The translations under genes were made by a program, and so were the position numbers. The notes below the pieces were generated by a model. It did no database searches. It had not been told where the DNA came from and worked only from the letters and a program-made list of their open reading frames with translations. Positions 1-53,859 of a DNA stretch of 64,000 nucleotides are shown here, in pieces; position 1 is the stretch's first letter, and every line of letters starts with the position of its first letter. The stretch is from Haliotis asinina (taxonomy: Eukaryota; Mollusca; Gastropoda; Lepetellida; Haliotidae), in assembly GCF_037392515.1 (NCBI RefSeq), contig NC_090283.1, forward strand, positions 31,884,249 through 31,948,248, in the 5' to 3' direction.

Positions 1-1250
1 ACGATGGACGACTGCCACTATACCGACAGAAGCCCATAAAGGCAAGTATATATCTATTAACATCAACTCTTTCAAACACTAAACTCTTTATTATCTTTAC
101 TCTCAGGACCCTGGACATCATCATCCTGGGGGCAGAAATGGACCGTGAAGTCCTCCAGAGGCAGTGACGACTGCCAGGAAGACCGTGCATGGACGGGAGG
201 GACGATGGACGACTGCCACCATACCGACAGAAGCCCATAAAGGCAAGTATATATCTATTAACATCAACTCTTTCAAACACTAAACTCTTTATTATCTTCA
301 CTCTCAGGACCCTGGACATCATCATCCTGGGGGCAGAAATGGAGCGTGAAGTCCCCCAGAGGCAGTGACGACTGCCACGAAGACGCTGCATGGACGGGAG
401 GGACGATGGACGACTGCCACCATACCGACAGAAGCCCATGAAGGCAAGTATATATCTATTAACATCAACTCTTTCAAACACTAAACTCTTTATTATCTTT
501 ACACCTAGGACCCTGGACATCATCACCCTGGGGGCAGAAATGGACCGTGAAGTCCCCCAGAGGCAGTGACGACTGCCACGAAGACGCTGCATGGACGGGA
601 GGGACGATGGACAACTGCCGCCATACCGACAGAAGCCCATAAAGGCAAGTATATATATCTATTAACATCAACTCTTTCAAACACTAAACTCTTTATTATC
701 TTTACTCTCAGGACCCTGGACATCATCATCCTGGGGGCAGAAATGGAGCGTGAAGTCCCCCAGAGGCAGTGACGACTGCCACGAAGACCCTGCATGGGCG
801 GGAGGGACGATGGACGACTGCCACCATACCGACAGAAGCCCATAAAGGCAAGTATATATCTATTAACATCAACTCTTTCAAAGAGTAACATCTTTATTAT
901 CTTCACACTTAGGACCCTGGACATCATCATCCTGGGGGCAGAAATGGACCGTGAAGTCCCCCAGACGCAGTGACGACTACCACGAAGACGCTGCATGGAC
1001 GGGAGGGACGAGGGACAACTGCCACCATACCGACAGAAGCCCATGAAGGCAAGTATATATCTATTAACATCAACTCTTTCAAACACTAAACTCTTTATTA
1101 TCTTTACACTTAAGACCCTGGACATCATCACCCTGGGGGCAGAAATGGACCGTGAAGTCCCCCAGAGGCAGTGACGACTGCCACGAAGACGCTGCATGGA
1201 CGGGAGGGACGATGGACAACTGCCGCCATACCGACAGAAGCCCATAAAGG
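1..1250. repeat. Higher-order block, 1,813-bp offset, copy 1
   Basis: The window's first 1.2 kb recurs at 1,814-3,060 in the same order of variants, including both 203-bp units. The offset of 1,813 bp equals nine units with two dinucleotide insertions. The same offset recurs at about 11,150-13,000. Confidence 0.75.
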
Positions 1251-1813
1251 CAAGTATATATATCTATTAACATCAACTCTTTCAAACACTAAACTCTTTA
1301 TTATCTTTACTCTCAGGACCCTGGACATCATCATCCTGGGGGCAGAAATGGAGCGTGAAGTCCCCCAGAGGCAGTGACGACTGCCACGAAGACGCTGCAT
1401 GGACGGGAGGGACGATGGACGACTGCCACCATACCGACAGAAGCCCATGAAGGCAAGTATATATCTATTAACATCAACTCTTTCAAACACTAAACTCTTT
1501 ATTATCTTTACTCTCAGGACCCTGGACATCATCATCCTGGGGGCAGAAATGGAGCGTGAAGTCCCCCAGAGGCAGTGACGACTGCCACGAAGACGCTGCA
1601 TGGACGGGAGGGACGATGGACGACTGCCACCATACCGACAGAAGCCCATAAAGGCAAGTATATATCTATTAACATCAACTCTTTCAAAGAGTAACATCTT
1701 TATTATCTTTACACTTAGGACCCTGGACATCATCATCCTGGGGGCAGAAATGGAGCGTGAAGTCCCCCAGAGGCAGTGACGACTTCCACGGAGACGCTGC
1801 ATGGACGGGAGGG

Positions 1814-3060
1814 ACGATGGACGACTGCCACCATACCGACAGAAGCCCATAAAGGCAAGTATATATCTATTAACATCAACTCTTTCAAACACTAAACTCT
1901 TTATTATCTTTACTCTCAGGACCCTGGACATCATCATCCTGGGGGCAGAAATGGACCGTGAAGTCCTCCAGAGGCAGTGACGACTGCCAGGAAGACCGTG
2001 CATGGACGGGAGGGACGATGGACGACTGCCACCATACCGACAGAAGCCCATAAAGGCAAGTATATATCTATTAACATCAACTCTTTCAAACACTAAACTC
2101 TTTATTATCTTCACTCTCAGGACCCTGGACATCATCATCCTGGGGGCAGAAATGGACCGTGAAGTCCCCCAGAGGCAGTGACGACTGCCACGAAGACGCT
2201 GCATGGACGGGAGGGACGATGGACGACTGCCACCATACCGACAGAAGCCCATGAAGGCAAGTATATATCTATTAACATCAACTCTTTCAAACACTAAACT
2301 CTTTATTATCTTTACACCTAGGACCCTGGACATCATCACCCTGGGGGCAGAAATGGACCGTGAAGTCCCCCAGAGGCAGTGACGACTGCCACGAAGACGC
2401 TGCATGGACGGGAGGGACGATGGACAACTGCCGCCATACCGACAGAAGCCCATAAAGGCAAGTATATATATCTATTAACATCAACTCTTTCAAACACTAA
2501 ACTCTTTATTATCTTTACTCTCAGGACCCTGGACATCATCATCCTGGGGGCAGAAATGGAGCGTGAAGTCCCCCAGAGGCAGTGACGACTGCCACGAAGA
2601 CCCTGCATGGGCGGGAGGGACGATGGACGACTGCCACCATACCGACAGAAGCCCATAAAGGCAAGTATATATCTATTAACATCAACTCTTTCAAAGAGTA
2701 ACATCTTTATTATCTTCACACTTAGGACCCTGGACATCATCATCCTGGGGGCAGAAATGGACCGTGAAGTCCCCCAGACGCAGTGACGACTACCACGAAG
2801 ACGCTGCATGGACGGGAGGGACGAGGGACAACTGCCACCATACCGACAGAAGCCCATGAAGGCAAGTATATATCTATTAACATCAACTCTTTCAAACACT
2901 AAACTCTTTATTATCTTTACACTTAAGACCCTGGACATCATCACCCTGGGGGCAGAAATGGACCGTGAAGTCCCCCAGAGGCAATGACGACTGCCACGAA
3001 GACGCTGCATGGACGGGAGGGATGATGGACAACTGCCACCATACCGACAGAAGCCCATAA
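1814..3060. repeat. Higher-order block, 1,813-bp offset, copy 2
   Basis: Partner of 1-1,250. The minus-strand reading frame at 2,336-3,058 gives the same 240-residue translation as 523-1,245, which shows very little divergence. Confidence 0.75.
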
Positions 3061-6000
3061 AGGCAAGTATATATATCTATTAACATCAACTCTTTCAAAC
3101 ACTAAACTCTTTATTATCTTTACTCTCAGGACCCTGGACATCATCATCCTGGGGGCAGAAATGGAGCGTGAAGTCCCCCAGAGGCAGTGACGACTGCCAC
3201 GAAGACGCTGCATGGACGGGAGGGACGATGGACGACTGCCACCATACCGACAGAAGCCCATGAAGGCAAGTATATATCTATTAACATCAACTCTTTCAAA
3301 CACTAAACTCTTTATTATCTTTACACTTAAGACCCTGGACATCATCACCCTGGGGGCAGAAATGGACCGTGAAGTCCCCCAGAGGCAATGACGACTGCCA
3401 CGAAGACGCTGCATGGACGGGAGGGATGATGGACAACTGCCACCATACCGAGAGAAGCCCATAAAGGCAAGTATATATATCTATTAACATCAACTCTTTC
3501 AAACACTAAACTCTTTATTATCTTTACTCTCAGGACCCTGGACATCATCATCCTGGGGGCAGAAATGGAGCGTGAAGTCCCCCAGAGGCAGTGACGACTG
3601 CCACGAAGACGCTGCATGGACGGGAGGGACGATGGACGACTGCCACCATACCGACAGAAGCCCATGAAGGCAAGTATATATCTATCAACATCAACTCTTT
3701 CAAACACTAAACTCTTTATTATCTTTACACTTAGGACCCTGGACATCATCATCCTGGGGGCAGAAATGGAGCGTGAAGTCCCCCAGAGGCAGTGACAACT
3801 TCCACGGAGACGCTGCATGGACGGGAGGGACGATGGGCGACTGCCACCATACCGACAGAAGCCCATAAAGGCAAGTATATATCTATTAACATCAACTCTT
3901 TCAAACACTAAACTCTTTATTATCTTTAGTCTCAGGACCCTGGACATCATCATCCTGGGGGCAGAAATGGAGCGTGAAGTCCTCCAGAGGCAGTGACGAC
4001 TGCCACGAAGACGCTGCATGGACGGGAGGGACGATGGACGACTGCCACCATACCGACAGAAGCCCATAAAGGCAAGTATATATCTATTAACATCAACTCT
4101 TTCAAACACTAAACTCTTTATTATCTTTACACTTAGGACCCTGGACATCATCACCCTGGGGGCAGAAATGGACCGTGAAGTCCCCCAGAGGCAATGACGA
4201 CTGCCACGAAGACGCTGCATGGACGGGAGGGATGATGGACAACTGCCACCATACCTACAGAAGCCCATAAAGGCAAGTATATATATCTATTAACATCAAC
4301 TCTTTCAAACACTAAACTCTTTATTATCTTTACTCTCAGGACCCTGGACATCATCATCCTGGGGGCAGAAATGGAGCGTGAAGTCCCCCAGAGGCAGTGA
4401 CGACTGCCACGAAGACGCTGCATGGACGGGAGGGACGATGGACGACTGCCACCATACCGACAGAAGCCCATAAAGGCAAGTATATATCTATTAACATCAA
4501 CTCTTTCAAACACTAAACTCTTTATTATCTTTACTCTCAGGACCCTGGACATCATCATCCTGGGGGAAGAAATGGACCGTGAAGTCCCCCAGAGGCAGTG
4601 ACGACTGCCACGAAGACGCTGCATGGACGGGAGGGACGATGGACGACTGCCACCATACCGACAGAAGCCCATAAAGGCAAGTATATATCTATTAACATCA
4701 ACTCTTTCAAACACTAAACTCTTTATTATCTTTACACTTAGGACTCTGGACATCATCATCCTGGGGGCAGAAATGGACCGTGAAATCCCCCAGACGCAGT
4801 GACAACTGCCACGGAGACGCTGCATGGACGGGAGGGACGATGGACGACTGCCACCATACCGACAGAGGGCCATAAAGGCAAGTATATATATCTATTAACA
4901 TCAACTCTTTCAAACACTAAACTCGTTATTATCTTTACACTTAGGACCCTGGACATCATCATCCTGGGGGCAGAAATGGAGCGTGAAGTCACCCAGAGGC
5001 AGTGACGACTGCCACGAAGACGCTGCATGGACGGGAGGGACGATGGGCGACTGCCACCATACCGACAGAAGCCCATAAAGGCAAGTATATATCTATTAAC
5101 ATCAACTCTTTCAAACACTAAACTCTTTATTATCTTTACTCTCAGGACCCTGGACATCATCATCCTGGGGGCAGAAATGGAGCGTGAAGTCCCCCAGAGG
5201 CAGTGACGACTGCCACGAAGACGCTGCATGGACGGGAGGGACGATGGACGACTGCCACCATACCGACAGAAGCCCATAAAGGCAAGTATATATCTATTAA
5301 CATCAACTCTTTAAAACAGTAACATATTTATTATCTTTACACTTAGGACCCTGGACATCATCATCCTGGGGGCAGAAATGGAGCGTGAAGTCCCCCAGAG
5401 GCAGTGACGACTGCCACGAAGACGCTGCATGGACGGGAGGGACGATGGACGACTGCCACCATACCGACAGAAGCCCATAAAGGCAAGTATATATCTATTA
5501 ACATCAACTCTTTCAAACACTAAACTCTTTATTATCTTTACTCTCAGGACCCTGGACATCATCATCCTGGGGGCAGAAATGGAGCGTGAAGTCCCCCAGA
5601 GGCAGTGACGACTGCCACGAAGACCCTGCATGGGCGGGAGGGACGATGGACGACTGCCACCATACCGACAGAAGCCCATAAAGGCAAGTATATATCTATT
5701 AACATCAACTCTTTCAAAGAGTAACATCTTTATTATCTTCACACTTAGGACCCTGGACATCATCATCCTGGGGGCAGAAATGGACCGTGAAGTCCCCCAG
5801 ACGCAGTGACGACTACCACGAAGACGCTGCATGGACGGGAGGGACGAGGGACAACTGCCACCATACCGACAGAAGCCCATAAAGGCAAGTATATATCTAT
5901 TAACATCAGCTCTTTCAAACACTAAACTCTTTATTATCTTCACTCTCAGGACCCTGGACATCATCATCCTGGGGGCAGAAATGGAGCGTGAAGTCCCCCA

Positions 6001-6784
6001 GAGGCAGTGACGACTGCCACGAAGACGCTGCATGGACGGGAGGGACGATGGACGACTGCCACCATACCGACAGAAGCCCATAAAGGCAAGTATATATCTA
6101 TTAACATCAACTCTTTCAAACACTAAACTCTTTATTATCTTTACTCTCAGGACCCTGGACATCATCATCCTGGGGGCAGAAATGGAGCGTGAAGTCCCCC
6201 AGAGGCAGTGACGACTGCCACGAAGACGCTGCATGGACGGGAGGGACGATGGACGACTGCCACCATACCGACAGAAGCCCATAAAGGCAAGTATATATCT
6301 ATTAACATCAACTCTTTCAAAGAGTAACATCTTTATTATCTTTACACTTAGGACCCTGGACATCATCATCCTGGGGGCAGAAATGGAGCGTGAAGTCCCC
6401 CAGAGGCAGTGACGACTTCCACGGAGACGCTGCATGGACGGGAGGGACGATGGACGACTGCCACCATACCGACAGAAGCCCATAAAGGCAAGTATATATC
6501 TATTAACATCAACTCTTTCAAACACTAAACTCTTTATTATCTTTACTCTCAGGACCCTGGACATCATCATCCTGGGGGCAGAAATGGACCGTGAAGTCCT
6601 CCAGAGGCAGTGACGACTGCCAGGAAGACCGTGCATGGACGGGAGGGACGATGGACGACTGCCACCATACCGACAGAAGCCCATAAAGGCAAGTATATAT
6701 CTATTAACATCAACTCTTTCAAACACTAAACTCTTTATTATCTTCACTCTCAGGACCCTGGACATCATCATCCTGGGGGCAGAA

Positions 6785-8690
6785 ATGGAGCGTGAAGTCC
6801 CCCAGAGGCAGTGACGACTGCCACGAAGACGCTGCATGGACGGGAGGGACGATGGACGACTGCCACCATACCGACAGAAGCCCATGAAGGCAAGTATATA
6901 TCTATTAACATCAACTCTTTCAAACACTAAACTCTTTATTATCTTTACACCTAGGACCCTGGACATCATCACCCTGGGGGCAGAAATGGACCGTGAAGTC
7001 CCCCAGAGGCAGTGACGACTGCCACGAAGACGCTGCATGGACGGGAGGGACGATGGACAACTGCCGCCATACCGACAGAAGCCCATAAAGGCAAGTATAT
7101 ATATCTATTAACATCAACTCTTTCAAACACTAAACTCTTTATTATCTTTACTCTCAGGACCCTGGACATCATCATCCTGGGGGCAGAAATGGAGCGTGAA
7201 GTCCCCCAGAGGCAGTGACGACTGCCACGAAGACCCTGCATGGGCGGGAGGGACGATGGACGACTGCCACCATACCGACAGAAGCCCATAAAGGCAAGTA
7301 TATATCTATTAACATCAACTCTTTCAAAGAGTAACATCTTTATTATCTTCACACTTAGGACCCTGGACATCATCATCCTGGGGGCAGAAATGGACCGTGA
7401 AGTCCCCCAGATGCAGTGACGACTACCACGAAGACGCTGCATGGACGGGAGGGACGAGGGACAACTGCCACCATACCGACAGAAGCCCATAAAGGCAAGT
7501 ATATATCTATTAACATCAGCTCTTTCAAACACTAAACTCTTTATTATCTTCACTCTCAGGACCCTGGACATCATCATCCTGGGGGCAGAAATGGAGCGTG
7601 AAGTCCCCCAGAGGCAGTGACGACTGCCACGAAGACGCTGCATGGACGGGAGGGACGATGGACGACTGCCACCATACCGACAGAAGCCCATAAAGGCAAG
7701 TATATATCTATTAACATCAACTCTTTCAAACACTAAACTCTTTATTATCTTTACACTTAGGACCCTGGACATCATCACCCTGGGGGCAGAAATGGACCGT
7801 GAAGTCCCCCAGAGGCAGTGACGACTGCCACGAAGACGCTGCATGGACGGGAGGGACGATGGACAACTGCCACCATACCGACAGAAGCCCATAAAGGCAA
7901 GTATATATATCTATTAACATCAACTCTTTCAAACACTAAACTCTTTATTATCTTTACTCTCAGGACCCTGGACATCATCATCCTGGGGGCAGAAATGGAG
8001 CGTGAAGTCCCCCAGAGGCAGTGACGACTGCCACGAAGACCCTGCATGGGCGGGAGGGACGATGGACGACTGCCACCATACCGACAGAAGCCCATAAAGG
8101 CAAGTATATATCTATTAACATCAACTCTTTCAAAGAGTAACATCTTTAATATCTTCACACTTAGGACCCTGGACATCATCATCCTGGGGGCAGAAATGGA
8201 CCGTGAAGTCCCCCAGACGCAGTGACGACTACCACGAAGACGCTGCATGGACGGGAGGGACGAGGGACAACTGCCACCATACCGACAGAAGCCCATAAAG
8301 GCAAGTATACATATCTATTAACATCAACTCTTTCAAACACTAAACTCTTTGTTATCTTTACTCTCAGGACCCTGGACATCATCATCCTGGGGGCAGATAT
8401 GGACCGTGAAGTCCCCCAGAGGCAGTGACGACTGCCACGGAGACGCTGCATGGACGGGAGGGACGATGGACGACTGCCACCATACCGACAGAAGCCCATA
8501 AAGGCAAGTATATATCTATTAACATCAACTCTTTCAAACACTAAACTCTTTATTATCTTTACTCTCAGGACCCTGGACATCATCATCCTGGGGGCAGAAA
8601 TGGAGGGTGAAGTCCCCCAGAGGCAGTGACGACTGCCACGAAGACGCTGCATGGACGGGAGGGACGATGGACGACTGCCACCATACCGAC
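6785..8690. repeat. Higher-order block, 2,418-bp offset, copy 1
   Basis: Landmarks at 6,920, 7,012, 7,726, 7,818 and 8,222 recur 2,418 bp to the right (12 units, three of them 203 bp). The match is lost at about 8,700, where the AAAGAGTAACATC variant faces AAACACTAAACTC. Ends are approximate. Confidence 0.65.
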
Positions 8691-9202
8691 AGAAGCCCAT
8701 AAAGGCAAGTATATATCTATTAACATCAACTCTTTCAAAGAGTAACATCTTTATTATCTTTACACTTAGGACCCTGGACATCATCATCCTGGGGGCAGAA
8801 ATGGAGCGTGAAGTCCCCCAGAGGCAGTGACGACTTCCACGGAGACGCTGCATGGACGGGAGGGACGATGGACGACTGCCACCATACCGACAGAAGCCCA
8901 TAAAGGCAAGTATATATCTATTAACATCAACTCTTTCAAACACTAAACTCTTTATTATCTTTACTCTCAGGACCCTGGACATCATCATCCTGGGGGCAGA
9001 TATGGACCGTGAAGTCCTCCAGAGGCAGTGACGACTGCCAGGAAGACCGTGCATGGACGGGAGGGACGATGGACGACTGCCACCATACCGACAGAAGCCC
9101 ATAAAGGCAAGTATATATCTATTAACATCAACTCTTTCAAACACTAAACTCTTTATTATCTTCACTCTCAGGACCCTGGACATCATCATCCTGGGGGCAG
9201 AA

Positions 9203-11108
9203 ATGGAGCGTGAAGTCCCCCAGAGGCAGTGACGACTGCCACGAAGACGCTGCATGGACGGGAGGGACGATGGACGACTGCCACCATACCGACAGAAGCC
9301 CATGAAGGCAAGTATATATCTATTAACATCAACTCTTTCAAACACTAAACTCTTTATTATCTTTACACTTAGGACCCTGGACATCATCACCCTGGGGGCA
9401 GAAATGGACCGTGAAGTCCCCCAGAGGCAGTGACGACTGCCACGAAGACGCTGCATGGACGGGAGGGACGATGGACAACTGCCGCCATACCGACAGAAGC
9501 CCATAAAGGCAAGTATATATATCTATTAACATCAACTCTTTCAAACACTAAACTCTTTATTATCTTTACTCTCAGGACCCTGGACATCATCATCCTGGGG
9601 GCAGAAATGGAGCGTGAAGTCCCCCAGAGGCAGTGACGACTGCCACGAAGACCCTGCATGGGCGGGAGGGACGATGGACGACTGCCACCATACCGACAGA
9701 AGCCCATAAAGGCAAGTATATATCTATTAACATCAACTCTTTCAAAGAGTAACATCTTTATTATCTTCACACTTAGGACCCTGGACATCATCATCCTGGG
9801 GGCAGAAATGGACCGTGAAGTCCCCCAGACGCAGTGACGACTACCACGAAGACGCTGCATGGACGGGAGGGACGAGGGACAACTGCCACCATACCGACAG
9901 AAGCCCATAAAGGCAAGTATATATCTATTAACATCAACTCTTTCAAACACTAAACTCTTTATTATCTTCACTCTCAGGACCCTGGACATCATCATCCTGG
10001 GGGCAGAAATGGAGCGTGAAGTCCCCCAGAGGCAGTGACGACTGCCACGAAGACGCTGCATGGACGGGAGGGACGATGGACGACTGCCACCATACCGACA
10101 GAAGCCCATAAAGGCAAGTATATATCTATTAACATCAACTCTTTCAAACACTAAACTCTTTATTATCTTTACACTTAGGACCCTGGACATCATCACCCTG
10201 GGGGCAGAAATGGACCGTGAAGTCCCCCAGAGGCAGTGACGACTGCCACGAAGACGCTGCATGGACGGGAGGGACGATGGACAACTGCCACCATACCGAC
10301 AGAAGCCCATAAAGGCAAGTATATATATCTATTAACATCAACTCTTTCAAACACTAAACTCTTTATTATCTTTACTCTCAGGACCCTGGACATCATCATC
10401 CTGGGGGCAGAAATGGAGCGTGAAGTCCCCCAGAGGCAGTGACGACTGCCACGAAGACCCTGCATGGGCGGGAGGGACGATGGACGACTGCCACCATACC
10501 GACAGAAGCCCATAAAGGCAAGTATATATCTATTAACATCAACTCTTTCAAAGAGTAACATCTTTAATATCTTCACACTTAGGACCCTGGACATCATCAT
10601 CCTGGGGGCAGAAATGGACCGTGAAGTCCCCCAGACGCAGTGACGACTACCACGAAGACGCTGCATGGACGGGAGGGACGAGGGACAACTGCCACCATAC
10701 CGACAGAAGCCCATAAAGGCAAGTATACATATCTATTAACATCAACTCTTTCAAACACTAAACTCTTTGTTATCTTTACTCTCAGGACCCTGGACATCAT
10801 CATCCTGGGGGCAGAAATGGACCGTGAAGTCCCCCAGAGGCAGTGACGACTGCCACGGAGACGCTGCATGGACGGGAGGGACGATGGACGACTGCCACCA
10901 TACCGACAGAAGCCCATAAAGGCAAGTATATATCTATTAACATCAACTCTTTCAAACACTAAACTCTTTATTATCTTTACTCTCAGGACCCTGGACATCA
11001 TCATCCTGGGGGCAGAAATGGAGGGTGAAGTCCCCCAGAGGCAGTGACGACTGCCACGAAGACGCTGCATGGACGGGAGGGACGATGGACGACTGCCACC
11101 ATACCGAC
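9203..11108. repeat. Higher-order block, 2,418-bp offset, copy 2
   Basis: Partner of 6,785-8,690. It contains the rare TTTAATATCTTC and ATACATATCT variants in the same relative positions (about 10,561 and 10,727). Confidence 0.65.
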
Positions 11109-13369
11109 AGAAGCCCATAAAGGCAAGTATATATCTATTAACATCAACTCTTTCAAACACTAAACTCTTTATTATCTTTACTCTCAGGACCCTGGACATC
11201 ATCATCCTGGGGGCAGAAATGGAGCGTGAAGTCCCCCACAGGCAGTGACGACTGCCACGAAGACGCTGCATGGACAGGAGGGACGATGGACGACTGCCAC
11301 CATACCGACAGAGGGCCATAAAGGCAAGTATATATATCTGTTAACATCAACTCTTTCAAACACTAAACTCGTTATTATCTTTACACTTAGGACCCTGGAC
11401 ATCATCATCCTGGGGGCAGAAATGGAGCGTGAAGTCCCCCAGAGGCAGTGACGACTGCCACGAAGACGCTGCATGGACGGGAGGGACGATGGGCGACTGC
11501 CACCATACCGACAGAAGCCCATAAAGGCAAGTATATATCTATTAACATCAACTCTTTCAAACACTAAACTCTTTATTATCTTTACACTTAGGACTCTGGA
11601 CATCATCATCCTGGGGGCAGAAATGGACCGTGAAATCCCCCAGACGCAGTGACAACTGCCACGAAGACGCTGCATGGACGGGAGGGACGATGGACAACTG
11701 CCGCCATACCGACAGAAGCCCATAAAGGCAAGTATATATATCTATTAACATCAACTCTTTCAAACACTAAACTCTTTATTATCTTTACTCTCAGGACCCT
11801 GGACATCATCATCCTGGGGGCAGAAATGGAGCGTGAAGTCCCCCAGAGGCAGTGACGACTGCCACGAAGACCCTGCATGGGCGGGAGGGACGATGGACGA
11901 CTGCCACCATACCGACAGAAGCCCATAAAGGCAAGTATATATCTATTAACATCAACTCTTTCAAAGAGTAACATCTTTATTATCTTCACACTTAGGACCC
12001 TGGACATCATCATCCTGGGGGCAGAAATGGACCGTGAAGTCCCCCAGACGCAGTGACGACTACCACGAAGACGCTGCATGGACGGGAGGGACGAGGGACA
12101 ACTGCCACCATACCGACAGAAGCCCATAAAGGCAAGTATATATCTATTAACATCAACTCTTTCAAACACTAAACTCTTTATTATCTTCACTCTCAGGACC
12201 CTGGACATCATCATCCTGGGGGCAGAAATGGAGCGTGAAGTCCCCCAGAGGCAGTGACGACTGCCACGAAGACGCTGCATGGACGGGAGGGACGATGGAC
12301 AACTGCCGCCATACCGACAGAAGCCCATAAAGGCAAGTATATATCTATTAACATCAACTCTTTCAAAGAGTAACATCTTTATTATCTTCACACTTAGGAC
12401 CCTGGACATCATCATCCTGGGGGCAGAAATGGACCGTGAAGTCCCCCAGACGCAGTGACGACTACCACGAAGACGCTGCATGGACGGGAGGGACGAGGGA
12501 CAACTGCCACCATACCGACAGAAGCCCATAAAGGCAAGTATATATCTATTAACATCAACTCTTTCAAACACTAAACTCTTTATTATCTTCACTCTCAGGA
12601 CCCTGGACATCATCATCCTGGGGGCAGAAATGGACCGTGAAGTCCCCCAGAGGCAGTGACGACTGCCACGGAGACGCTGCATGGACGGGAGGGACGATGG
12701 ACGACTGCCACCATACCGACAGAAGCCCATAAAGGCAAGTATATATCTATTAACATCAACTCTTTCAAACACTAAACTCTTTATTATCTTTACTCTCAGG
12801 ACCCTGGACATCATCATCCTGGGGGCAGAAATGGAGGGTGAAGTCCCCCAGAGGCAGTGACGACTGCCACGAAGACGCTGCATGGACGGGAGGGACGATG
12901 GACGACTGCCACCATACCGACAGAAGCCCATAAAGGCAAGTATATATCTATTAACATCAACTCTTTCAAACACTAAACTCTTTATTATCTTTACTCTCAG
13001 GACCCTGGACATCATCATCCTGGGGGCAGAAATGGAGCGTGAAGTCCCCCACAGGCAGTGACGACTGCCACGAAGACGCTGCATGGACAGGAGGGACGAT
13101 GGACGACTGCCACCATACCGACAGAGGGCCATAAAGGCAAGTATATATATCTGTTAACATCAACTCTTTCAAACACTAAACTCGTTATTATCTTTACACT
13201 TAGGACCCTGGACATCATCATCCTGGGGGCAGAAATGGAGCGTGAAGTCCCCCAGAGGCAGTGACGACTGCCACGAAGACGCTGCATGGACGGGAGGGAC
13301 GATGGGCGACTGCCACCATACCGACAGAAGCCCATAAAGGCAAGTATATATCTATTAACATCAACTCTT

Positions 13370-28639: not shown

Positions 28640-30250
28640 ATAAAGGCAAGTATATATCTATTAACATCAACTCTTTCAAACACTAAACTCTTTATTATCT
28701 TTACTCTCAGGACCCTGGACATCATCATCCTGGGGACAGAAATGGAGCGTGAAGTCCCCCAGAGGCAGTGACGACTGCCACGAAGACGCTGCATGGACGG
28801 GAGGGACGATGGACGACTGCCACCATACCGACAGAAGCCCATAAAGGCAAGTATATATCTATTAACATCAACTCTTTCAAACACTAAACTCTTTATTATC
28901 TTTACTCTCAGGACCCTGGACATCATCATCCTGGGGGCAGAAATGGAGCGTGAAGTCCCCCAGAGGCAGTGACGACTGCCACGAAGACGCTGCATGGACG
29001 GGAGGGACGATGGACGACTGCCACCATACCGACAGAAGCCCATAAAGGCAAGTATATATCTATTAACATCAACTCTTTCAAACACTAAACTCTTTATTAT
29101 CTTTACTCTCAGGACCCTGGACATCATCATCCTGGGGGCAGAAATGGACCGTGAAGTCCCCCAGAGGCAGTGACGACTGCCACGAAGACGCTGCATGGAC
29201 GGGAGGGACGATGGACGACTGCCACCATACCGACAGAAGCCCATAAAGGCAAGTATATATCTATTAACATCAACTCTTTCAAACACTAAACTCTTTATTA
29301 TCTTTACTCTCAGGACCCTGGACATCATCATCCTGGGGGCAGAAATGGACCGTGAAGTCCCCCAGAGGCAGTGACGACTGCCACGAAGACGCTGCATGGA
29401 CGGGAGGGACGATGGACGACTGCCACCATACCGACAGAAGCCCATAAAGGCAAGCATATATCTATTAACATCAACTCTTTCAAACACTAAACTCTTTATT
29501 ATCTTTACTCTCAGGACCCTGGACATCATCATCCTGGGGGTAGAAATGGACCGTGAAGTCCTCCAGAGGCAGTGACGACTGCCAGGAAGACGCTGCATGG
29601 ACGGGAGGGACGATGGACGACTGCCACCATACCGACAGAAGCCCATAAAGGCAAGTATATATCTATTAACATCAACTCTTTCAAAGAGTAACATCTTTAT
29701 TATCTTTACACTTAGGACCCTGGACATCATCATCCTGGGGGCAGAAATGGAGCGTGAAATCCCCCAGAGGCAGTGACGACTGCCACGGAGACGCTGCATG
29801 GACGGGAGGGACGATGGACGACTGCCACCATACCGACAGAAGCCCATAAAGGCAAGTATATATCTATTAACATCAACTCTTTCAAACACTAAACTCTTTA
29901 TTATCTTTACTCTCAGGACCCTGGACATCATCATCCTGGGGGCAGAAATGGAGCGTGAAGTCCCCCAGAGGCAGTGACGACTGCCACGAAGACGCTGCAT
30001 GGACGGGAGGGACGATGGACGACTGCCACCATACCGACAGAAGCCCATAAAGGCAAGTATATATCTATTAACATCAACTCTTTCAAACACTAAACTCTTT
30101 ATTATCTTTACTCTCAGGACCCTGGACATCATCATCCTGGGGGCAGAAATGGACCGTGAAGTCCCCCAGAGGCAGTGACGACTGCCACGAAGACGCTGCA
30201 TGGACGGGAGGGACGATGGACGACTGCCACCATACCGACAGAAGCCCATA
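28640..30250. repeat. Higher-order block, 1,608-bp period, copy 1
   Basis: Eight 201-bp units whose markers recur 1,608 bp to the right: GGGGACAGA at 28,732 and 30,340, AGCATATATC at 29,453 and 31,061, AAAGAG at 29,683 and 31,291. Ends are approximate to within one unit. Confidence 0.7.
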
Positions 30251-31860
30251 AAGGCAAGTATATATCTATTAACATCAACTCTTTCAAACACTAAACTCTT
30301 TATTATCTTTACTCTCAGGACCCTGGACATCATCATCCTGGGGACAGAAATGGAGCGTGAAGTCCCCCAGAGGCAGTGACGACTGCCACGAAGACGCTGC
30401 ATGGACGGGAGGGACGATGGACGACTGCCACCATACCGACAGAAGCCCATAAAGGCAAGTATATATCTATTAACATCAACTCTTTCAAACACTAAACTCT
30501 TTATTATCTTTACTCTCAGGACCCTGGACATCATCATCCTGGGGGCAGAAATGGACCGTGAAGTCCCCCAGAGGCAGTGACGACTGCCACGAAGACGCTG
30601 CATGGACGGGAGGGACGATGGACGACTGCCACCATACCGACAGAAGCCCATAAAGGCAAGTATATATCTATTAACATCAACTCTTTCAAACACTAAACTC
30701 TTTATTATCTTTACTCTCAGGACCCTGGACATCATCATCCTGGGGGCAGAAATGGACCGTGAAGTCCCCCAGAGGCAGTGACGACTGCCACGAAGACGCT
30801 GCATGGACGGGAGGGACGATGGACGACTGCCACCATACCGACAGAAGCCCATAAAGGCAAGTATATATCTATTAACATCAACTCTTTCAAACACTAAACT
30901 CTTTATTATCTTTACTCTCAGGACCCTGGACATCATCATCCTGGGGGCAGAAATGGACCGTGAAGTCCCCCAGAGGCAGTGACGACTGCCACGAAGACGC
31001 TGCATGGACGGGAGGGACGATGGACGACTGCCACCATACCGACAGAAGCCCATAAAGGCAAGCATATATCTATTAACATCAACTCTTTCAAACACTAAAC
31101 TCTTTATTATCTTTACTCTCAGGACCCTGGACATCATCATCCTGGGGGTAGAAATGGACCGTGAAGTCCTCCAGAGGCAGTGACGACTGCCAGGAAGACG
31201 CTGCATGGACGGGAGGGACGATGGACGACTGCCACCATACCGACAGAAGCCCATAAAGGCAAGTATATATCTATTAACATCAACTCTTTCAAAGAGTAAC
31301 ATCTTTATTATCTTTACACTTAGGACCCTGGACATCATCATCCTGGGGGCAGAAATGGAGCGTGAAATCCCCCAGAGGCAGTGACGACTGCCACGGAGAC
31401 GCTGCATGGACGGGAGGGACGATGGACGACTGCCACCATACCGACAGAAGCCCATAAAGGCAAGTATATATCTATTAACATCAACTCTTTCAAACACTAA
31501 ACTCTTTATTATCTTTACTCTCAGGACCCTGGACATCATCATCCTGGGGGCAGAAATGGAGCGTGAAGTCCCCCAGAGGCAGTGACGACTGCCACGAAGA
31601 CGCTGCATGGACGGGAGGGACGATGGACGACTGCCACCATACCGACAGAAGCCCATAAAGGCAAGTATATATCTATTAACATCAACTCTTTCAAACACTA
31701 AACTCTTTATTATCTTTACTCTCAGGACCCTGGACATCATCATCCTGGGGGCAGAAATGGACCGTGAAGTCCCCCAGAGGCAGTGACGACTGCCACGAAG
31801 ACGCTGCATGGACGGGAGGGACGATGGACGACTGCCACCATACCGACAGAAGCCCATAAA
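30250..31860. repeat. Higher-order block, 1,608-bp period, copy 2
   Basis: Partner of the preceding eight-unit block. It overlaps the left part of the 5,630-bp block, so the 1,608-bp duplication and the 5,630-bp duplication are nested, and the order of events can be worked out from shared variants. Confidence 0.68.
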
Positions 31861-34800
31861 GGCAAGCATATATCTATTAACATCAACTCTTTCAAACACT
31901 AAACTCTTTATTATCTTTACTCTCAGGACCCTGGACATCATCATCCTGGGGGTAGAAATGGACCGTGAAGTCCTCCAGAGGCAGTGACGACTGCCAGGAA
32001 GACGCTGCATGGACGGGAGGGACGATGGACGACTGCCACCATACCGACAGAAGCCCATAAAGGCAAGTATATATCTATTAACATCAACTCTTTCAAACAC
32101 TAAACTCTTTATTATCTTTACACTTAGGACCCTGGACGTCATCACCCTGGGGGCAGAAATGGACCGTGAAGTCCCCCAGAGGCAGTGACGACTGCCACGA
32201 AGACGCTGCATGGACGGGAGGGACGATGGACAACTGCCACCATACCGACAGAAGCCCATAAAGGCAAGTATATATCTATTAACATCAACTCTTTCAAACA
32301 CTATACTCTTTATTATCTTTACTCTCAGGACCCTGGACATCATCATCCTGGGGGCAGAAATGGACCGTGAAGTCCCCCAGAGGCAGTGACGACTGCCAGG
32401 AAGACGCTGCATGGACGGGAGGGACGATGGACGACTGCCACCATACCGACAGAAGCCCATAAAGGCAAGTATATATCTATTAACATCAACTCTTTCAAAC
32501 ACTAAACTCTTTATTATCTTTACTCTCAGGACCCTGGACATCATCATCCTGGGGGCAGAAATGGAGCGTGAAGTCCCCCAGAGGCAGTGACGACTGCCAC
32601 GGAGACGCTGCATGGACGGGAGGGACGATGGACGACTGCCACCATACCGACAGAAGCCCATAAAGGCAAGTATATATCTATTAACATCAACTCTTTCAAA
32701 CACTAAACTCTTTATTATCTTTACTCTCAGGACCCTGGACATCATCATCCTGGGGGCAGAAATGGAGCGTGAAGTCCCCCAGAGGCAGTGACGACTGCCA
32801 CGGAGACGCTGCATGGACGGGAGGGACGATGGACGACTGCCACCATACCGACAGAAGCCCATAAAGGCAAGTATATATCTATTAACATCAACTCTTTCAA
32901 ACACTAAACTCTTTATTATCTTTACTCTCAGGACCCTGGACATCATCATCCTGGGGGCAGAAATGGAGGGTGAAGTCCCCCAGAGGCAGTGACGACTGCC
33001 ACGAAGACGCTGCATGGACGGGAGGGACGATGGACGACTGCCACCATACCGACAGAAGCCCATAAAGGCAAGTATATATCTATTAACATCAACTCTTTCA
33101 AACACTAAACTCTTTATTATCTTTACTCTCAGGACCCTGGACATCATCATCCTGGGGGCAGAAATGGAGCGTGAAGTCCCCCAGAGGCAGTGACGACTGC
33201 CACGAAGACGCTGCATGGACAGGAGGGACGATGGACGACTGCCACCATACCGACAGAAGCCCATAAAGGCAAGTATATATCTATTAACATCAACTCTTTC
33301 AAACACTAAACTCTTTATTATCTTTACTCTCAGGACCCTGGACATCATCATCCTGGGGGCAGAAATGGACCGTGAAGTCCCCCAGAGGCAGTGACGACTG
33401 CCACGAAGACGCTGCATGGACGGGAGGGACGATGGACGACTGCCACCATACCGACAGAAGCCCATAAAGGCAAGTATATATCTATTAACATCAACTCTTT
33501 CAAACACTAAACTCTTTATTATCTTTACTCTCAGGACCCTGGACATCATCATCCTGGGGACAGAAATGGACCGTGAAGTCCCCCAGAGGCAGTGACGACT
33601 GCCACGAAGACGCTGCATGGACGGGAGGGACGATGGACGACTGCCACCATACCGACAGAAGCCCATAAAGGCAAGTATATATCTATTAACATCAACTCTT
33701 TCAAACACTAAACTCTTTATTATCTTTACTCTCAGGACCCTGGACATCATCATCCTGGGGGCAGAAATGGAGCGTGAAGTCCCCCAGAGGCAGTGACGAC
33801 TGCCACGAAGACGCTGCATGGACGGGAGGGACGATGGACGACTGCCACCATACCGACAGAAGCCCATAAAGGCAAGTATATATCTATTAACATCAACTCT
33901 TTCAAAGAGTAACATCTTTATTATCTTTACACTTAGGACCCTGGACATCATCATCCTGGGGGCAGAAATGGACCGTGAAGTCCCCCAGAGACAGTGAAGA
34001 CTGCCACGGAGACGCTGCATGGACCTGAGGGACGATGGACGACTGCCACCATACCGACAGAAGCCCATAAAGGCAAGTATATATCTATTAACATCCACTC
34101 TTTCAAACACTAAACTCTTTATTATCTTTACACGTTGGACGATGGACATCATCACCCTGGGGGCAGAAATGGACCGTGAAGTCCCCCAGAGGCAGTGACG
34201 ACTGCCACGAAGACGCTGCATGGACGGGAGGGACGATGGACAACTGCCACCATACCGACAGAAGCCCATAAAGGCAAGTATATATATCTATTAACATCAA
34301 CTCTTTCAAACACTAAACTCTTTGTTATCTTTACTCTCAGGACCCTGGACATCATCATCCTGGGGGCAGAAATGGAGCGTGAAGTCCCCCAGAGGCAGTG
34401 ACGACTGCCACGAAGACGCTGCATGGACGGGAGGGACGATGGACGACTGCCACCATACCGACAGAAGCCCATAAAGGCAAGTATATATCTATTAACATCA
34501 ACTCTTTCAAACACTAAACTCTTTATTATCTTTACTCTCAGGACCCTGGACATCATCATCCTGGGGGCAGAAATGGACCGTGAAGTCCCCCAGAGGCAGT
34601 GACGACTGCCACGAAGACGCTGCATGGACGGGAGGGACGATGGACGACTGCCACCATACCGACAGAAGCCCATAAAGGCAAGTATATATCTATTAACATC
34701 AACTCTTTCAAACACTAAACTCTTTATTATCTTTACTCTCAGGACCCTGGACATCATCATCCTGGGGGCAGAAATGGAGGGTGAAGTCCCCCAGAGGCAG

Positions 34801-36170
34801 TGACGACTGCCACGAAGACGCTGCATGGACGGGAGGGACGATGGACGACTGCCACCATACCGACAGAAGCCCATAAAGGCAAGTATATATCTATTAACAT
34901 CAACTCTTTCAAACAGTAACATCTTTATTATCTTTACACTTAGGACCCTGGACATCATCATCCTGGGGGCAGAAATGGAGCGTGAAGTCCCCCAGAGACA
35001 GTGACAACTTCCACGGAGACGCTGCATGGACGGGAGGGACGATGGGCGACTGCCACCATACCGACAGAAGCCCATAAAGGCAAGTATATATCTATTAACA
35101 TCAACTCTTTCAAACACTAAACTCTTTATTATCTTTACTCTCAGGACCCTGGACATCATCATCCTGGGGCCAGAAATGGACCGTGAAGTCCTCCAGAGGC
35201 AGTGACGACTGCCAGGAAGACCCTGCATGGACGGGAGGGACGATGGACGACTGCCACCATACCGACAGAAGCCCATAAAGGCAAGTATATATCTATTAAC
35301 ATCAACTCTTTCAAACACTAAACTCTTTATTATCTTTACTCTCAGGACCCTGGACATCATCATCCTGGGGGCAGAAATGGACCGTGAAGTCCCCCAGAGG
35401 CAGTGACGACTGCCACGAAGACGCTGCATGGACGGGAGGGACGATGGACGACTGCCACCATACCGACAGAAGCCCATAAAGGCAAGTATATATCTATTAA
35501 CATCAACTCTTTCAAACACTAAACTCTTTATTATCTTTACTCTCAGGACCCTGGACATCATCATCCTGGGGCCAGAAATGGACCGTGAAGTCCTCCAGAG
35601 GCAGTGACGACTGCCAGGAAGACCCTGCATGGACGGGAGGGACGATGGACGACTGCCACCATACCGACAGAAGCCCATAAAGGCAAGTATATATCTATTA
35701 ACATCAACTCTTTCAAACACTAAACTCTTTATTATCTTTACTCTCAGGACCCTGGACATCATCATCCTGGGGGCAGAAATGGAGGGTGAAGTCCCCCAGA
35801 GGCAGTGACGACTGCCACGAAGACGCTGCATGGACGGGAGGGACGATGGACGACTGCCACCATACCGACAGAAGCCCATAAAGGCAAGTATATATCTATT
35901 AACATCAACTCTTTCAAACAGTAACATCTTTATTATCTTTACACTTAGGACCCTGGACATCATCATCCTGGGGGCAGAAATGGAGCGTGAAGTCCCCCAG
36001 AGACAGTGACAACTTCCACGGAGACGCTGCATGGACGGGAGGGACGATGGGCGACTGCCACCATACCGACAGAAGCCCATAAAGGCAAGTATATATCTAT
36101 TAACATCAACTCTTTCAAACACTAAACTCTTTATTATCTTTACTCTCAGGACCCTGGACATCATCATCCT
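30555..36170. repeat. Higher-order block, 5,630-bp period, copy 1
   Basis: Bases here match those 5,630 bp to the right, which equals 28 units of which one is 203 bp. Rare private variants confirm the register: ACGTTGGAC at 34,132 and 39,762, GGGGCCAGAAATGG near 35,168 and 40,798, AAAGAGTAAC at 31,291 and 36,921, and AGCATATATC at 31,061 and 36,691. I noticed only about ten single-base differences plus one clustered patch. The match fails left of about 30,551 and right of about 36,170, so it is one clean tandem duplication. Confidence 0.85.
30721..30921 (+). repeat. Representative 201-bp unit of the array
   Basis: This unit is close to the consensus. From the left it has GACCCTGG; an inverted repeat CTGGGGG (30,740-30,746) / CCCCCAG (30,766-30,772) with a 19-nt loop; then a second perfect hairpin GGCAGT-GACG-ACTGCC (30,774-30,789). 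The 12-mer GACGACTGCCAC occurs twice, 42 bp apart. Then comes AAAG followed by GCAAGTATATATCTATTAAC and a pyrimidine-rich run ending in CTCTCAG just before the next unit. The preceding GCAAGT...CTCAG segment (30,656-30,720, 65 bp) looks like a minimal GC-AG intron with a branch-point-like TATTAAC. All three plus-strand frames of the 136-bp remainder contain stops, so a protein-coding exon on this strand is unlikely. Confidence 0.9.
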
Positions 36171-36184
36171 GGGGGCAGAAATGG

Positions 36185-39100
36185 AGCGTGAAGTCCCCCA
36201 GAGGCAGTGACGACTGCCACGAAGACGCTGCATGGACGGGAGGGACGATGGACGACTGCCACCATACCGACAGAAGCCCATAAAGGCAAGTATATATCTA
36301 TTAACATCAACTCTTTCAAACACTAAACTCTTTATCATCTTTACTCTCAGGACCCTGGACATCATCATCCTGGGGGCAGAAATGGACCGTGAAGTCCCCC
36401 AGAGGCAGTGACGACTGCCACGAAGACGCTGCATGGACGGGAGGGACGATGGACGACTGCCACCATACCGACAGAAGCCCATAAAGGCAAGTATATATCT
36501 ATTAACATCAACTCTTTCAAACACTAAACTCTTTATTATCTTTACTCTCAGGACCCTGGACATCATCATCCTGGGGGCAGAAATGGACCGTGAAGTCCCC
36601 CAGAGGCAGTGACGACTGCCACGAAGACGCTGCATGGACGGGAGGGACGATGGACGACTGCCACCATACCGACAGAAGCCCATAAAGGCAAGCATATATC
36701 TATTAACATCAACTCTTTCAAACACTAAACTCTTTATTATCTTTACTCTCAGGACCCTGGACATCATCATCCTGGGGGTAGAAATGGACCGTGAAGTCCT
36801 CCAGAGGCAGTGACGACTGCCAGGAAGACGCTGCATGGACGGGAGGGACGATGGACGACTGCCACCATACCGACAGAAGCCCATAAAGGCAAGTATATAT
36901 CTATTAACATCAACTCTTTCAAAGAGTAACATCTTTATTATCTTTACACTTAGGACCCTGGACATCATCATCCTGGGGGCAGAAATGGAGCGTGAAATCC
37001 CCCAGAGGCAGTGACGACTGCCACGGAGACGCTGCATGGACGGGAGGGACGATGGACGACTGCCACCATACCGACAGAAGCCCATAAAGGCAAGTATATA
37101 TCTATTAACATCAACTCTTTCAAACACTAAACTCTTTATTATCTTTACTCTCAGGACCCTGGACATCATCATCCTGGGGGCAGAAATGGAGCGTGAAGTC
37201 CCCCAGAGGCAGTGACGACTGCCACGAAGACGCTGCATGGACGGGAGGGACGATGGACGACTGCCACCATACCGACAGAAGCCCATAAAGGCAAGTATAT
37301 ATCTATTAACATCAACTCTTTCAAACACTAAACTCTTTATTATCTTTACTCTCAGGACCCTGGACATCATCATCCTGGGGGCAGAAATGGAGCGTGAAGT
37401 CCCCCAGAGGCAGTGACGACTGCCACGAAGACGCTGCATGGACGGGAGGGACGATGGACGACTGCCACCATACCGACAGAAGCCCATAAAGGCAAGCATA
37501 TATCTATTAACATCAACTCTTTCAAACACTAAACTCTTTATTATCTTTACTCTCAGGACCCTGGACATCATCATCCTGGGGGTAGAAATGGACCGTGAAG
37601 TCCTCCAGAGGCAGTGACGACTGCCAGGAAGACGCTGCATGGACGGGAGGGACGATGGACGACTGCCACCATACCGACAGAAGCCCATAAAGGCAAGTAT
37701 ATATCTATTAACATCAACTCTTTCAAACACTAAACTCTTTATTATCTTTACACTTAGGACCCTGGACGTCATCACCCTGGGGGCAGAAATGGACCGTGAA
37801 GTCCCCCAGAGGCAGTGACGACTGCCACGAAGACGCTGCATGGACGGGAGGGACGATGGACAACTGCCACCATACCGACAGAAGCCCATAAAGGCAAGTA
37901 TATATCTATTAACATCAACTCTTTCAAACACTATACTCTTTATTATCTTTACTCTCAGGACCCTGGACATCATCATCCTGGGGGCAGAAATGGACCGTGA
38001 AGTCCCCCAGAGGCAGTGACGACTGCCAGGAAGACACTGCATGGACGGGAGGGACGATGGACGACTGCCACCATACCGACAGAAGCCCATAAAGGCAAGT
38101 ATATATCTATTAACATCAACTCTTTCAAACACTAAACTCTTTATTATCTTTACTCTCAGGACCCTGGACATCATCATCCTGGGGGCAGAAATGGAGCGTG
38201 AAGTCCCCCAGAGGCAGTGACGACTGCCACGGAGACGCTGCATGGACGGGAGGGACGATGGACGACTGCCACCATACCGACAGAAGCCCATAAAGGCAAG
38301 TATATATCTATTAACATCAACTCTTTCAAACACTAAACTCTTTATTATCTTTACTCTCAGGACCCTGGACATCATCATCCTGGGGGCAGAAATGGAGCGT
38401 GAAGTCCCCCAGAGGCAGTGACGACTGCCACGGAGACGCTGCATGGACGGAAGGGACGATGGACGACTGCCACCATACCGACAGAAGCCCATAAAGGCAA
38501 GTATATGTCTATTAACATCAACTCTTTCAAACACTAAACTCTTTATTATCTTTACTCTCAGGACCCTGGACATCATCATCCTGGGGGCAGAAATGGAGGG
38601 TGAAGTCCCCCAGAGGCAGTGACGACTGCCACGAAGACGCTGCATGGACGGGAGGGACGATGGACGACTGCCACCATACCGACAGAAGCCCATAAAGGCA
38701 AGTATATATCTATTAACATCAACTCTTTCAAACACTAAACTCTTTATTATCTTTACTCTCAGGACCCTGGACATCATCATCCTGGGGGCAGAAATGGAGC
38801 GTGAAGTCCCCCAGAGGCAGTGACGACTGCCACGAAGACGCTGCATGGACAGGAGGGACGATGGACGACTGCCACCATACCGACAGAAGCCCATAAAGGC
38901 AAGTATATATCTATTAACATCAACTCTTTCAAACACTAAACTCTTTATTATCTTTACTCTCAGGACCCTGGACATCATCATCCTGGGGGCAGAAATGGAC
39001 CGTGAAGTCCCCCAGAGGCAGTGACGACTGCCACGAAGACGCTGCATGGACGGGAGGGACGATGGACGACTGCCACCATACCGACAGAAGCCCATAAAGG

Positions 39101-41800
39101 CAAGTATATATCTATTAACATCAACTCTTTCAAACACTAAACTCTTTATTATCTTTACTCTCAGGACCCTGGACATCATCATCCTGGGGACAGAAATGGA
39201 CCGTGAAGTCCCCCAGAGGCAGTGACGACTGCCACGAAGACGCTGCATGGACGGGAGGGACGATGGACGACTGCCACCATACCGACAGAAGCCCATAAAG
39301 GCAAGTATATATCTATTAACATCAACTCTTTCAAACACTAAACTCTTTATTATCTTTACTCTCAGGACCCTGGACATCATCATCCTGGGGGCAGAAATGG
39401 AGCGTGAAGTCCCCCAGAGGCAGTGACGACTGCCACGAAGACGCTGCATGGACGGGAGGGACGATGGACGACTGCCACCATACCGACAGAAGCCCATAAA
39501 GGCAAGTATATATCTATTAACATCAACTCTTTCAAAGAGTAACATCTTTATTATCTTTACACTTAGGACCCTGGACATCATCATCCTGGGGGCAGAAATG
39601 GACCGTGAAGTCCCCCAGAGACAGTGAAGACTGCCACGGAGACGCTGCATGGACCTGAGGGACGATGGACGACTGCCACCATACCGACAGAAGCCCATAA
39701 AGGCAAGTATATATCTATTAACATCCACTCTTTCAAACACTAAACTCTTTATTATCTTTACACGTTGGACGATGGACATCATCACCCTGGGGGCAGAAAT
39801 GGACCGTGAAGTCCCCCAGAGGCAGTGACGACTGCCACGAAGACGCTGCATGGACGGGAGGGACGATGGACAACTGCCACCATACCGACAGAAGCCCATA
39901 AAGGCAAGTATATATATCTATTAACATCAACTCTTTCAAACAGTAACATCTTTATTATCTTTACACTTAGGACCCTGGACATCATCATCCTGGGGGCAGA
40001 AATGGAGCGTGAAGTCCCCCAGAGGCAGTGACGACTGCCACGAAGACGCTGCATGGACGGGAGGGACGATGGACGACTGCCACCATACCGACAGAAGCCC
40101 ATAAAGGCAAGTATATATCTATTAACATCAACTCTTTCAAACACTAAACTCTTTATTATCTTTACTCTCAGGACCCTGGACATCATCATCCTGGGGGCAG
40201 AAATGGACCGTGAAGTCCCCCAGAGGCAGTGACGACTGCCACGAAGACGCTGCATGGACGGGAGGGACGATGGACGACTGCCACCATACCGACAGAAGCC
40301 CATAAAGGCAAGTATATATCTATTAACATCAACTCTTTCAAACACTAAACTCTTTATTATCTTTACTCTCAGGACCCTGGACATCATCATCCTGGGGGCA
40401 GAAATGGAGGGTGAAGTCCCCCAGAGGCAGTGACGACTGCCACGAAGACGCTGCATGGACGGGAGGGACGATGGACGACTGCCACCATACCGACAGAAGC
40501 CCATAAAGGCAAGTATATATCTATTAACATCAACTCTTTCAAACAGTAACATCTTTATTATCTTTACACTTAGGACCCTGGACATCATCATCCTGGGGGC
40601 AGAAATGGAGCGTGAAGTCCCCCAGAGACAGTGACAACTTCCACGGAGACGCTGCATGGACGGGAGGGACGATGGGCGACTGCCACCATACCGACAGAAG
40701 CCCATAAAGGCAAGTATATATCTATTAACATCAACTCTTTCAAACACTAAACTCTTTATTATCTTTACTCTCAGGACCCTGGACATCATCATCCTGGGGC
40801 CAGAAATGGACCGTGAAGTCCTCCAGAGGCAGTGACGACTGCCAGGAAGACCCTGCATGGACGGGAGGGACGATGGACGACTGCCACCATACCGACAGAA
40901 GCCCATAAAGGCAAGTATATATCTATTAACATCAACTCTTTCAAACACTAAACTCTTTATTATCTTTACTCTCAGGACCCTGGACATCATCATCCTGGGG
41001 GCAGAAATGGAGCGTGAAGTCCCCCAGAGGCAGTGACGACTGCCACGAAGACGCTGCATGGACGGGAGGGACGATGGACGACTGCCACCATACCGACAGA
41101 AGCCCATAAAGGCAAGTATATATCTATTAACATCAACTCTTTCAAACACTAAACTCTTTATTATCTTTACTCTCAGGACCCTGGACATCATCATCCTGGG
41201 GCCAGAAATGGACCGTGAAGTCCTCCAGAGGCAGTGACGACTGCCAGGAAGACCCTGCATGGACGGGAGGGACGATGGACGACTGCCACCATACCGACAG
41301 AAGCCCATAAAGGCAAGTATATATCTATTAACATCAACTCTTTCAAACACTAAACTCTTTATTATCTTTACTCTCAGGACCCTGGACATCATCATCCTGG
41401 GGGCAGAAATGGAGGGTGAAGTCCCCCAGAGGCAGTGACGACTGCCACGAAGACGCTGCATGGACGGGAGGGACGATGGACGACTGCCACCATACCGACA
41501 GAAGCCCATAAAGGCAAGTATATATCTATTAACATCAACTCTTTCAAACAGTAACATCTTTATTATCTTTACACTTAGGACCCTGGACATCATCATCCTG
41601 GGGGCAGAAATGGAGCGTGAAGTCCCCCAGAGACAGTGACAACTTCCACGGAGACGCTGCATGGACGGGAGGGACGATGGGCGACTGCCACCATACCGAC
41701 AGAAGCCCATAAAGGCAAGTATATATCTATTAACATCAACTCTTTCAAACACTAAACTCTTTATTATCTTTACTCTCAGGACCCTGGACATCATCATCCT
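36185..41800. repeat. Higher-order block, 5,630-bp period, copy 2
   Basis: This is the direct tandem partner of the preceding 5.6-kb block. Differences seen include TTTATCATCT near 36,331 (T to C), AAGACACTGC near 38,031, GTATATGTCT near 38,501, and the patch at about 39,942-39,975, where the CAGTAACATC...CACTTAGG variant replaces CACTAAACTC...CTCTCAGG. The block ends about 260 bp before the array's right edge. Confidence 0.83.
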
Positions 41801-42066
41801 GGGGCCAGAAATGGACCGTGAAGTCCTCCAGAGGCAGTGACGACTGCCAGGAAGACCCTGCATGGACGGGAGGGACGATGGACGACTGCCACCATACCGA
41901 CAGAAGCCCATAAAGGCAAGTATATATCTATTAACATCAACTCTTTCAACCACTAAACTCTTTATTATCTTTACTCTCAGGACCCTGGACATCATCATCC
42001 TGGGGGTGGAAATGGACCGTGAAGTCCCCCAGAGGCAGTGACGACTGCCACGAAGACACTGCATGC

Positions 42067-42739
<673 letters not shown>

Positions 42740-53516: not shown

Positions 53517-53859
53517 TCTGAAACATGTGATATTCTAGTCTCCATTCCAGCGAGACTATTGCTGTACACCACATATCGTCAATTCAGTAATACGAATAGT
53601 TTATCAAGAATGACATACTGAATCCCCCAGTTACATGCTCTATAATTCCGCACTTAAACTTGATCAGGGAAGAATTTCAGTAAAACACCGGTAATCACAT
53701 CACATCGCATCACATTGAGTAAGGTGAAAAAGGAACAATGCGTGTGACTACTTGGAGAGATCGAGAGAGCAACACTGATGACTAATAACATCTCGGAGTA
53801 CTGAAGACTAATTACATCTCGCAGTATATTTTACGACATGAAAACTGATATTAAAACAG

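Follow-up and report, generated by a model that had tools for sequence, protein, structure and literature searches.

A 201/203-bp satellite array in the abalone Haliotis asinina, probably carried in a gene-bearing segmental duplication

We analysed a 64,000-bp stretch of the genome of the abalone Haliotis asinina (hereafter the window; C4:31884249-31948248, where C4 is contig NC_090283.1 of an assembly of 1.143 Gb in 159 contigs), whose first 42,066 bases are filled by a tandem array with a unit of 201 or 203 bp. This array is very probably one member of a non-coding satellite family that is carried in a segmental duplication, between a gene that we call gene A and a GNAT acetyltransferase gene, and that changes in length by unequal exchange or slippage. 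We read the satellite family as new and its kind as ordinary, the new part being the setting between truncated genes.

Results

Extent and regularity of the array

Tandem Repeats Finder (TRF) reported window positions 1-42065 as a single array (period 201, 209.0 copies, 95% matches, 0% indels, score 77456). An anchor scan of the window found 209 anchors, whose 208 spacings were 201 bp in 175 cases, 203 bp in 33 cases and nothing else. Both methods thus recovered the long head-to-tail arrangement of one unit that characterizes satellite DNA. A preliminary description of this DNA had reported an uninterrupted array of about 208 units, larger than the window and free of transposon insertions, and had named TRF as a check; our results bear out each of these points. 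When 90 kb were read leftward as nine contiguous 10-kb pieces, the array was found to start at approximately C4:31860457, and the part in the window (1..42066, plus strand) makes up the rightmost two thirds of the complete array, which measures ~66 kb and has ~327 units (C4:31860457-31926314). Because all 326 spacings between its 327 anchors are 200-204 bp, the whole array is free of insertions. In other arrays of the family, described below, 514 spacings from eleven 10-kb pieces likewise revealed no insertion; a single irregular spacing of 142 bp among them was left out of the unit alignment.

Shared edges of the arrays

The left edge of the array recurs along C4. A 1,070-base query across it was recovered at full length at 15 places on C4, including its own, at 95-100%, and a sixteenth left edge on C4 matched 946 bases of the query at 100%; these counts are lower bounds, drawn from the best 40 of 1019 candidates. 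With the 34.24-Mb locus, the homology of the left flank extends over at least 8.8 kb at 92-98%. At all six array loci read, a coding exon of gene A is cut after ...TASPR, at the identical codon and in frame into the array, and the resulting gene A-array frame stays open as far as an identical stop. In contrast, the six other copies of gene A, on C3, C6, C7 and C38, all continue beyond this breakpoint: the frame is complete, ending in ...LLSADETVE-stop, in two of them and broken in three, and the copy on C6 is fused to a tandem neighbour. Among the matches listed, the left flank was located on C3, C4, C6, C7 and C38. Gene A, for which no Pfam or PDB relative was found at E up to 1, is oriented in sense beside the array, and donor- and acceptor-like motifs flank its last exon. 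Apart from the satellite, the gene A exon region was also observed in tandem at C6:33022757-33041798 (~1,496 bp per copy) and at C4:39694340-39700582 (~860 bp per copy).

A common right edge was found as well. The right flanks of the 28.74-Mb and 34.31-Mb loci agree at 95% over 1 kb and correspond to an antisense exon of a GNAT acetyltransferase (PF18014; E 6.9e-8 over profile positions 1-76 of 124, and E 9.4e-6 over 1-75). In a search with this GNAT sequence (best 150 of 20264 candidates), the match continues into unit sequence in at least 11 places (the query's own among them), every one on C4, and it ends at residue 114-118 of the query in at least 18 GNAT copies. The GNAT sequence at the array edge is truncated near residue 118 of the query, whereas an untruncated copy continues with ...EVSEGDVVVVNSYVENH and matches PF18014 over positions 1-117 of 124 (E 7.3e-14). 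The fusion frame is free of stops within the match in six of the 11 junction copies and has two or three stops in the other five. Nine of these copies are accompanied, by coordinates, by an oppositely facing GNAT copy 20-43 kb away.

At the right edge of the array in the window (42066), the last unit is cut, and a dispersed repeat that is probably a piece of a transposon (42067..42592, recognized by genome search) occupies the place of GNAT. Copies of this repeat at 98% occur at C4:31613608 and C4:31187703, and diverged copies (74-81%) on at least 14 contigs. The copy at C4:31613608 forms a right edge, and its left counterpart, at 31.61 Mb, is the sixteenth left edge described above; this sibling array has both breakpoints of the window's array. 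The window's copy, one sibling and probably a third copy, at 31187703, have a transposon-like right edge instead of GNAT. The sibling was read at its left breakpoint, at a probe in its middle and at its right breakpoint, all of which consist of units (~1.2 of 2.8 kb read). Over 946 bases, its left flank matches that of the window's array without a difference, and it lacks 67 bases of gene A immediately next to the array. The sibling measures only ~2.8 kb and ~14 units, whereas the window's array has 327 units in 66 kb; the two loci imply a ~23-fold change in length, by growth or by loss, within a short divergence.

Arrays elsewhere in the genome

Six arrays on C4 have an edge found at either end and were probed inside; the window's array was read whole, and the others were sampled by probes and 10-kb pieces. 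They are the window's own (plus strand, ~66 kb) and those at 28.741-28.939 Mb (minus, ~198 kb), 29.076-29.225 Mb (minus, ~149 kb), 34.244-34.308 Mb (plus, ~64 kb), 38.644-38.861 Mb (minus, ~217 kb) and 39.043-39.514 Mb (minus, ~471 kb). They sum to ~1.16 Mb, and no probe inside them was negative. With the short sibling included, array lengths range from ~2.8 kb (~14 units) to ~471 kb (>2,000 units). Searching the genome for an exact 30-mer of the unit gave 8,638 occurrences, against none for its reversed control. Of 839 units sampled, 462 contain this 30-mer, from which we extrapolate to ~15,700 units and 3.2 Mb genome-wide, a rough figure because the fraction of units with the 30-mer ranges from 0.23 to 0.82 between arrays. 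Among the matches listed, unit arrays lie on C3, C4, C7, C38, C69 and C70. On C3, the listed unit match closest to gene A (47.679 Mb) falls at 47.659 Mb, and on C7 a distance of ~10 kb separates gene A from the closest unit among the matches listed. The pieces read at 28.7-29.2 and 38.6-39.5 Mb of C4 are in minus orientation and those at 31.9 and 34.2 Mb in plus orientation; the edge matches listed suggest similar orientation blocks, with exceptions, as if large inversions had followed the duplications.

Variation within and between arrays

The mean pairwise difference between units is ~8 sites, far from chance. Random pairs of units differ by 3.6% in the window's array and by 2.6-3.7% within the six arrays sampled, and pairs from different arrays differ by 3.0-4.1%. 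All six arrays contain private variants (in samples of as few as 28 units for some arrays), as the concerted evolution of satellites would produce, although the contrast within and between arrays is small. Within the array, series of as many as 18 units reappear in order, each unit with no more than two differences, compared with a longest run of 6 in 50 shuffles of unit order. No higher-order repeat of fixed period was seen, and the best lag varies along the array. Over ~1.9 kb beside and just into the array, the five loci aligned show 0.8-2.1% substitutions. Because the units (3.6%) differ more than these flanks, most of the variation among units probably predates the spread of the arrays.

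The preliminary description had proposed recent or continuing homogenisation, and this idea stands in part. Local turnover in the array is active, as the recurring 18-unit blocks and the contrast between the ~2.8-kb sibling and the ~66-kb array indicate, but most of the differences among units probably arose before the arrays spread.

The repeat unit

Positions 105..305 (plus strand) hold an example of a complete unit, in the phase that starts at AGGACCCTGG, as defined by inspection and the anchor scan. In those 203-bp units that are displayed, the additional 2 bp are one further TA within a TATATA run. Inspection also revealed an intron-like stretch within the unit (AG/GCAAGT ... CTCTCAG/GACC; 241..307, plus strand), whose conservation is unremarkable. 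The donor 8-mer is retained in 86.8% of units, against 89.9% for the median 8-mer, and 139 of the 201 8-mers are better retained; the acceptor-like YAG is retained in 95.7% of 839 units. Low-frequency changes number 1.09 per site in the intron-like part and 1.10 in the exon-like part. Selected splicing is unsupported, in that the splice-like motifs show no extra conservation within the unit.

One antisense frame is open all round the unit, and open frames on the minus strand reach 2,323 aa; in the window, a 781-aa frame spans part of the array (39782..42127, minus strand) and was judged fortuitous by the constraint and random-unit tests. Among 839 aligned units with 294 distinct substitutions, the counts of synonymous, nonsynonymous and stop changes were near neutral expectation in all six frames, so that no coding constraint was detected. 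Among 5000 random units of similar composition, 22.6% have some frame open all round. The antisense frame contains a stop in 18 of 577 units of 201 bp and is shifted by the 203-bp units, which are in the majority (65 of 97 spacings) in the two pieces read from the 29.1-Mb array. A coding array on either strand was rejected on the basis of this neutral pattern and of the ease with which frames are open by chance. Pfam matches of the antisense frame to HupF_HypC and Tc-38 were likewise rejected as an artefact of repetition, because the whole protein passes the cut-off but no single stretch does; the 67-aa translation of one unit alone has no Pfam match.

We also rejected a structured RNA. The window has no Rfam match at gathering thresholds, a search at E up to 1 on 701 bases gave three matches to one family (E 0.23), and the 136-nt exon-like part folds no better than shuffled sequences (z -0.35 and -1.21). 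An exact 36-mer of the unit is absent from viral_contigs, and no description of a 201-bp Haliotis satellite was found in the openly readable literature among the matches listed (titles and abstract openings). On its sequence, the array looks like non-coding satellite DNA, and the preliminary description was right to regard the unit as complex and to favour a satellite.

Discussion

How might these arrays have arisen? We propose that an older array lay near gene A, a position hinted at by the matches on C3 and C7, and may have been set against gene A and GNAT by a deletion or rearrangement; by the coordinates of these matches, the satellite would be older than its edges on C4 and would have been joined to the two genes later. 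The gene A-array-GNAT module may then have spread along C4:28.7-39.5 Mb through segmental duplication and inversion, to which the edges common to both orientations point. Afterwards, each array would have changed in length and composition via unequal exchange or slippage of multi-unit blocks, as suggested by the block duplications, the variants private to single arrays and the siblings of 2.8 and 66 kb. No function beyond passive amplification is indicated.

Several observations weigh against this account. The window's own array lacks a GNAT edge, and for two of the 11 GNAT junctions the matches listed include no second copy facing the other way. The order on C3 and C7 comes from match coordinates, not from continuous reading. 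Differences within arrays are barely below those between arrays, and given this small contrast and the small samples, concerted evolution appears weak. Furthermore, unit positions 151-165 are less variable than the remainder among the 839 units, and ~200 flank bases beside gene A are invariant in five loci; both could mean constraint.

We considered that the family might be a satellite at or near centromeres that takes part in kinetochore or heterochromatin formation. Such a role would agree with the concentration of the six bounded arrays between 28.7 and 39.5 Mb of the 83 Mb of C4 and with the extrapolated genome-wide copy number, but it seems unlikely, as duplicated gene-bearing DNA separates the arrays across more than 10 Mb and units were located on only six contigs among the matches listed. 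It is improbable that the array is a transcribed locus, an option that the preliminary description had left room for and in which the gene A promoter reads into units with splice-like signals (as a long non-coding RNA or a chimeric gene) or the GNAT gene reads in. The sense orientation of gene A, the splice-like motifs round its last exon and in the unit (AG/GCAAGT...YAG), the frame open to an identical stop at all six loci, the six stop-free GNAT junctions and the invariant ~200 flank bases would all suit transcription, but the motifs are not specially retained within the unit, coding constraint was detected in none of the frames, the 136-nt exon-like part gave no fold signal, the window has no Rfam match at gathering thresholds, and five GNAT junction frames contain stops.

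The array might instead represent the central repeats of a Helentron/HINE-type transposon. Constant flanks surround the array, and oyster elements of this type carry satellite-like arrays, 84% of which hold fewer than five monomers (PMC7492417). This origin is highly improbable, because the flanks here are truncated genes with a left homology of at least 8.8 kb, were located on five contigs only (best 40 of 1019 candidates), and enclose ~14 to >2,000 units; among these best candidates, we did not find a genome-dispersed element with short constant flanking modules. Collapse or false expansion of the array during assembly is hardly credible: no exact repeat of at least 2 kb occurs within the 65,834 bp of array tested, so that long reads should be able to place it, the arrays contain private variants, and the flanks differ between loci. 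Finally, the long open frames on the minus strand could be taken for a tandem coding gene or exon array, a reading that is almost certainly wrong in view of the neutral substitution pattern, the frame shifts caused by the 203-bp units and the frequency of open random units; an open, constrained frame across the units was not found.

In great apes, the expansion of satellites in subterminal caps is reportedly tied to segmental duplications. These caps (PMC12154684) resemble the satellite studied here in expanding jointly with duplicated sequence, whereas the arrays here are interstitial, lie mostly on one chromosome-scale contig and have truncated genes at their edges. Classical satellite DNA such as Cg170/HindIII of oysters (PMC7492417) is similar in its general form, with long head-to-tail arrays, a unit near 170-200 bp and a high copy number; in contrast, the arrays here adjoin identical truncated genes and spread along with them. 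The Helentron/HINE elements of Crassostrea gigas (PMC7492417) share with the present arrays a position within constant flanks, but the flanks here are kilobases of gene-bearing duplication found in few clusters, and the arrays measure ~2.8-471 kb.

The sibling loci, with common breakpoints, ~14 to >2,000 units and flanks that differ by ~1-2% (five loci aligned), form a natural series from which one could measure, inside one genome, how fast and in what manner a satellite grows and shrinks, and in which satellite arrays are seen travelling with gene-bearing duplications. We mention, as a long shot, that the gene A-array-GNAT module might itself be a unit of selection: a block that amplifies itself, is transcribed from the gene A promoter through the array and has spread at least 15-fold on one chromosome, with array length as a variable dose. 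The spread of such a selected block may reflect, for example, a meiotic advantage or a chromosome-specific seed of heterochromatin.

Neighbouring features

The region to the right of the array in the window contains remains of transposons, as the preliminary description had noticed: fragments of a reverse transcriptase (PF00078, E 7.6e-25) at 59295-59882 and of Transposase_1 (PF01359, E 3.8e-14) at 56095-56478, both on the minus strand. On the same strand, profile searches revealed a piece of a TRIM-like gene at 52444-53534, with RING, B-box (PF00643, E 2.3e-9) and a weak coiled coil, and two look-alike open frames at 48616-49314 and 62690-63505, for which the SPRY matches were weak and below the cut-off (E 0.0019 and 0.01). 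TRIM-like pieces were also observed to the left of the array, in the 10-kb piece where it begins (L015) and further upstream, and the two sides are related at 79-84%. A 63-bp minisatellite of 6.9 copies, identified by TRF at 55389-55822, has a minus-strand frame that is open through all copies. TRF also identified a second satellite-like array, with 11 copies and a period of 201 bp, ~9 kb left of the main array (L014:5019-7220); a relationship to the main unit was rejected, the matches being short and weak (best E 0.008 over 16 bases). Egg lysin is a mark of abalone and their near relatives, and the assignment to Haliotis is supported by Egg_lysin (PF01303), which has six matches on C14, all over the cut-off, and none in 14 control genomes.

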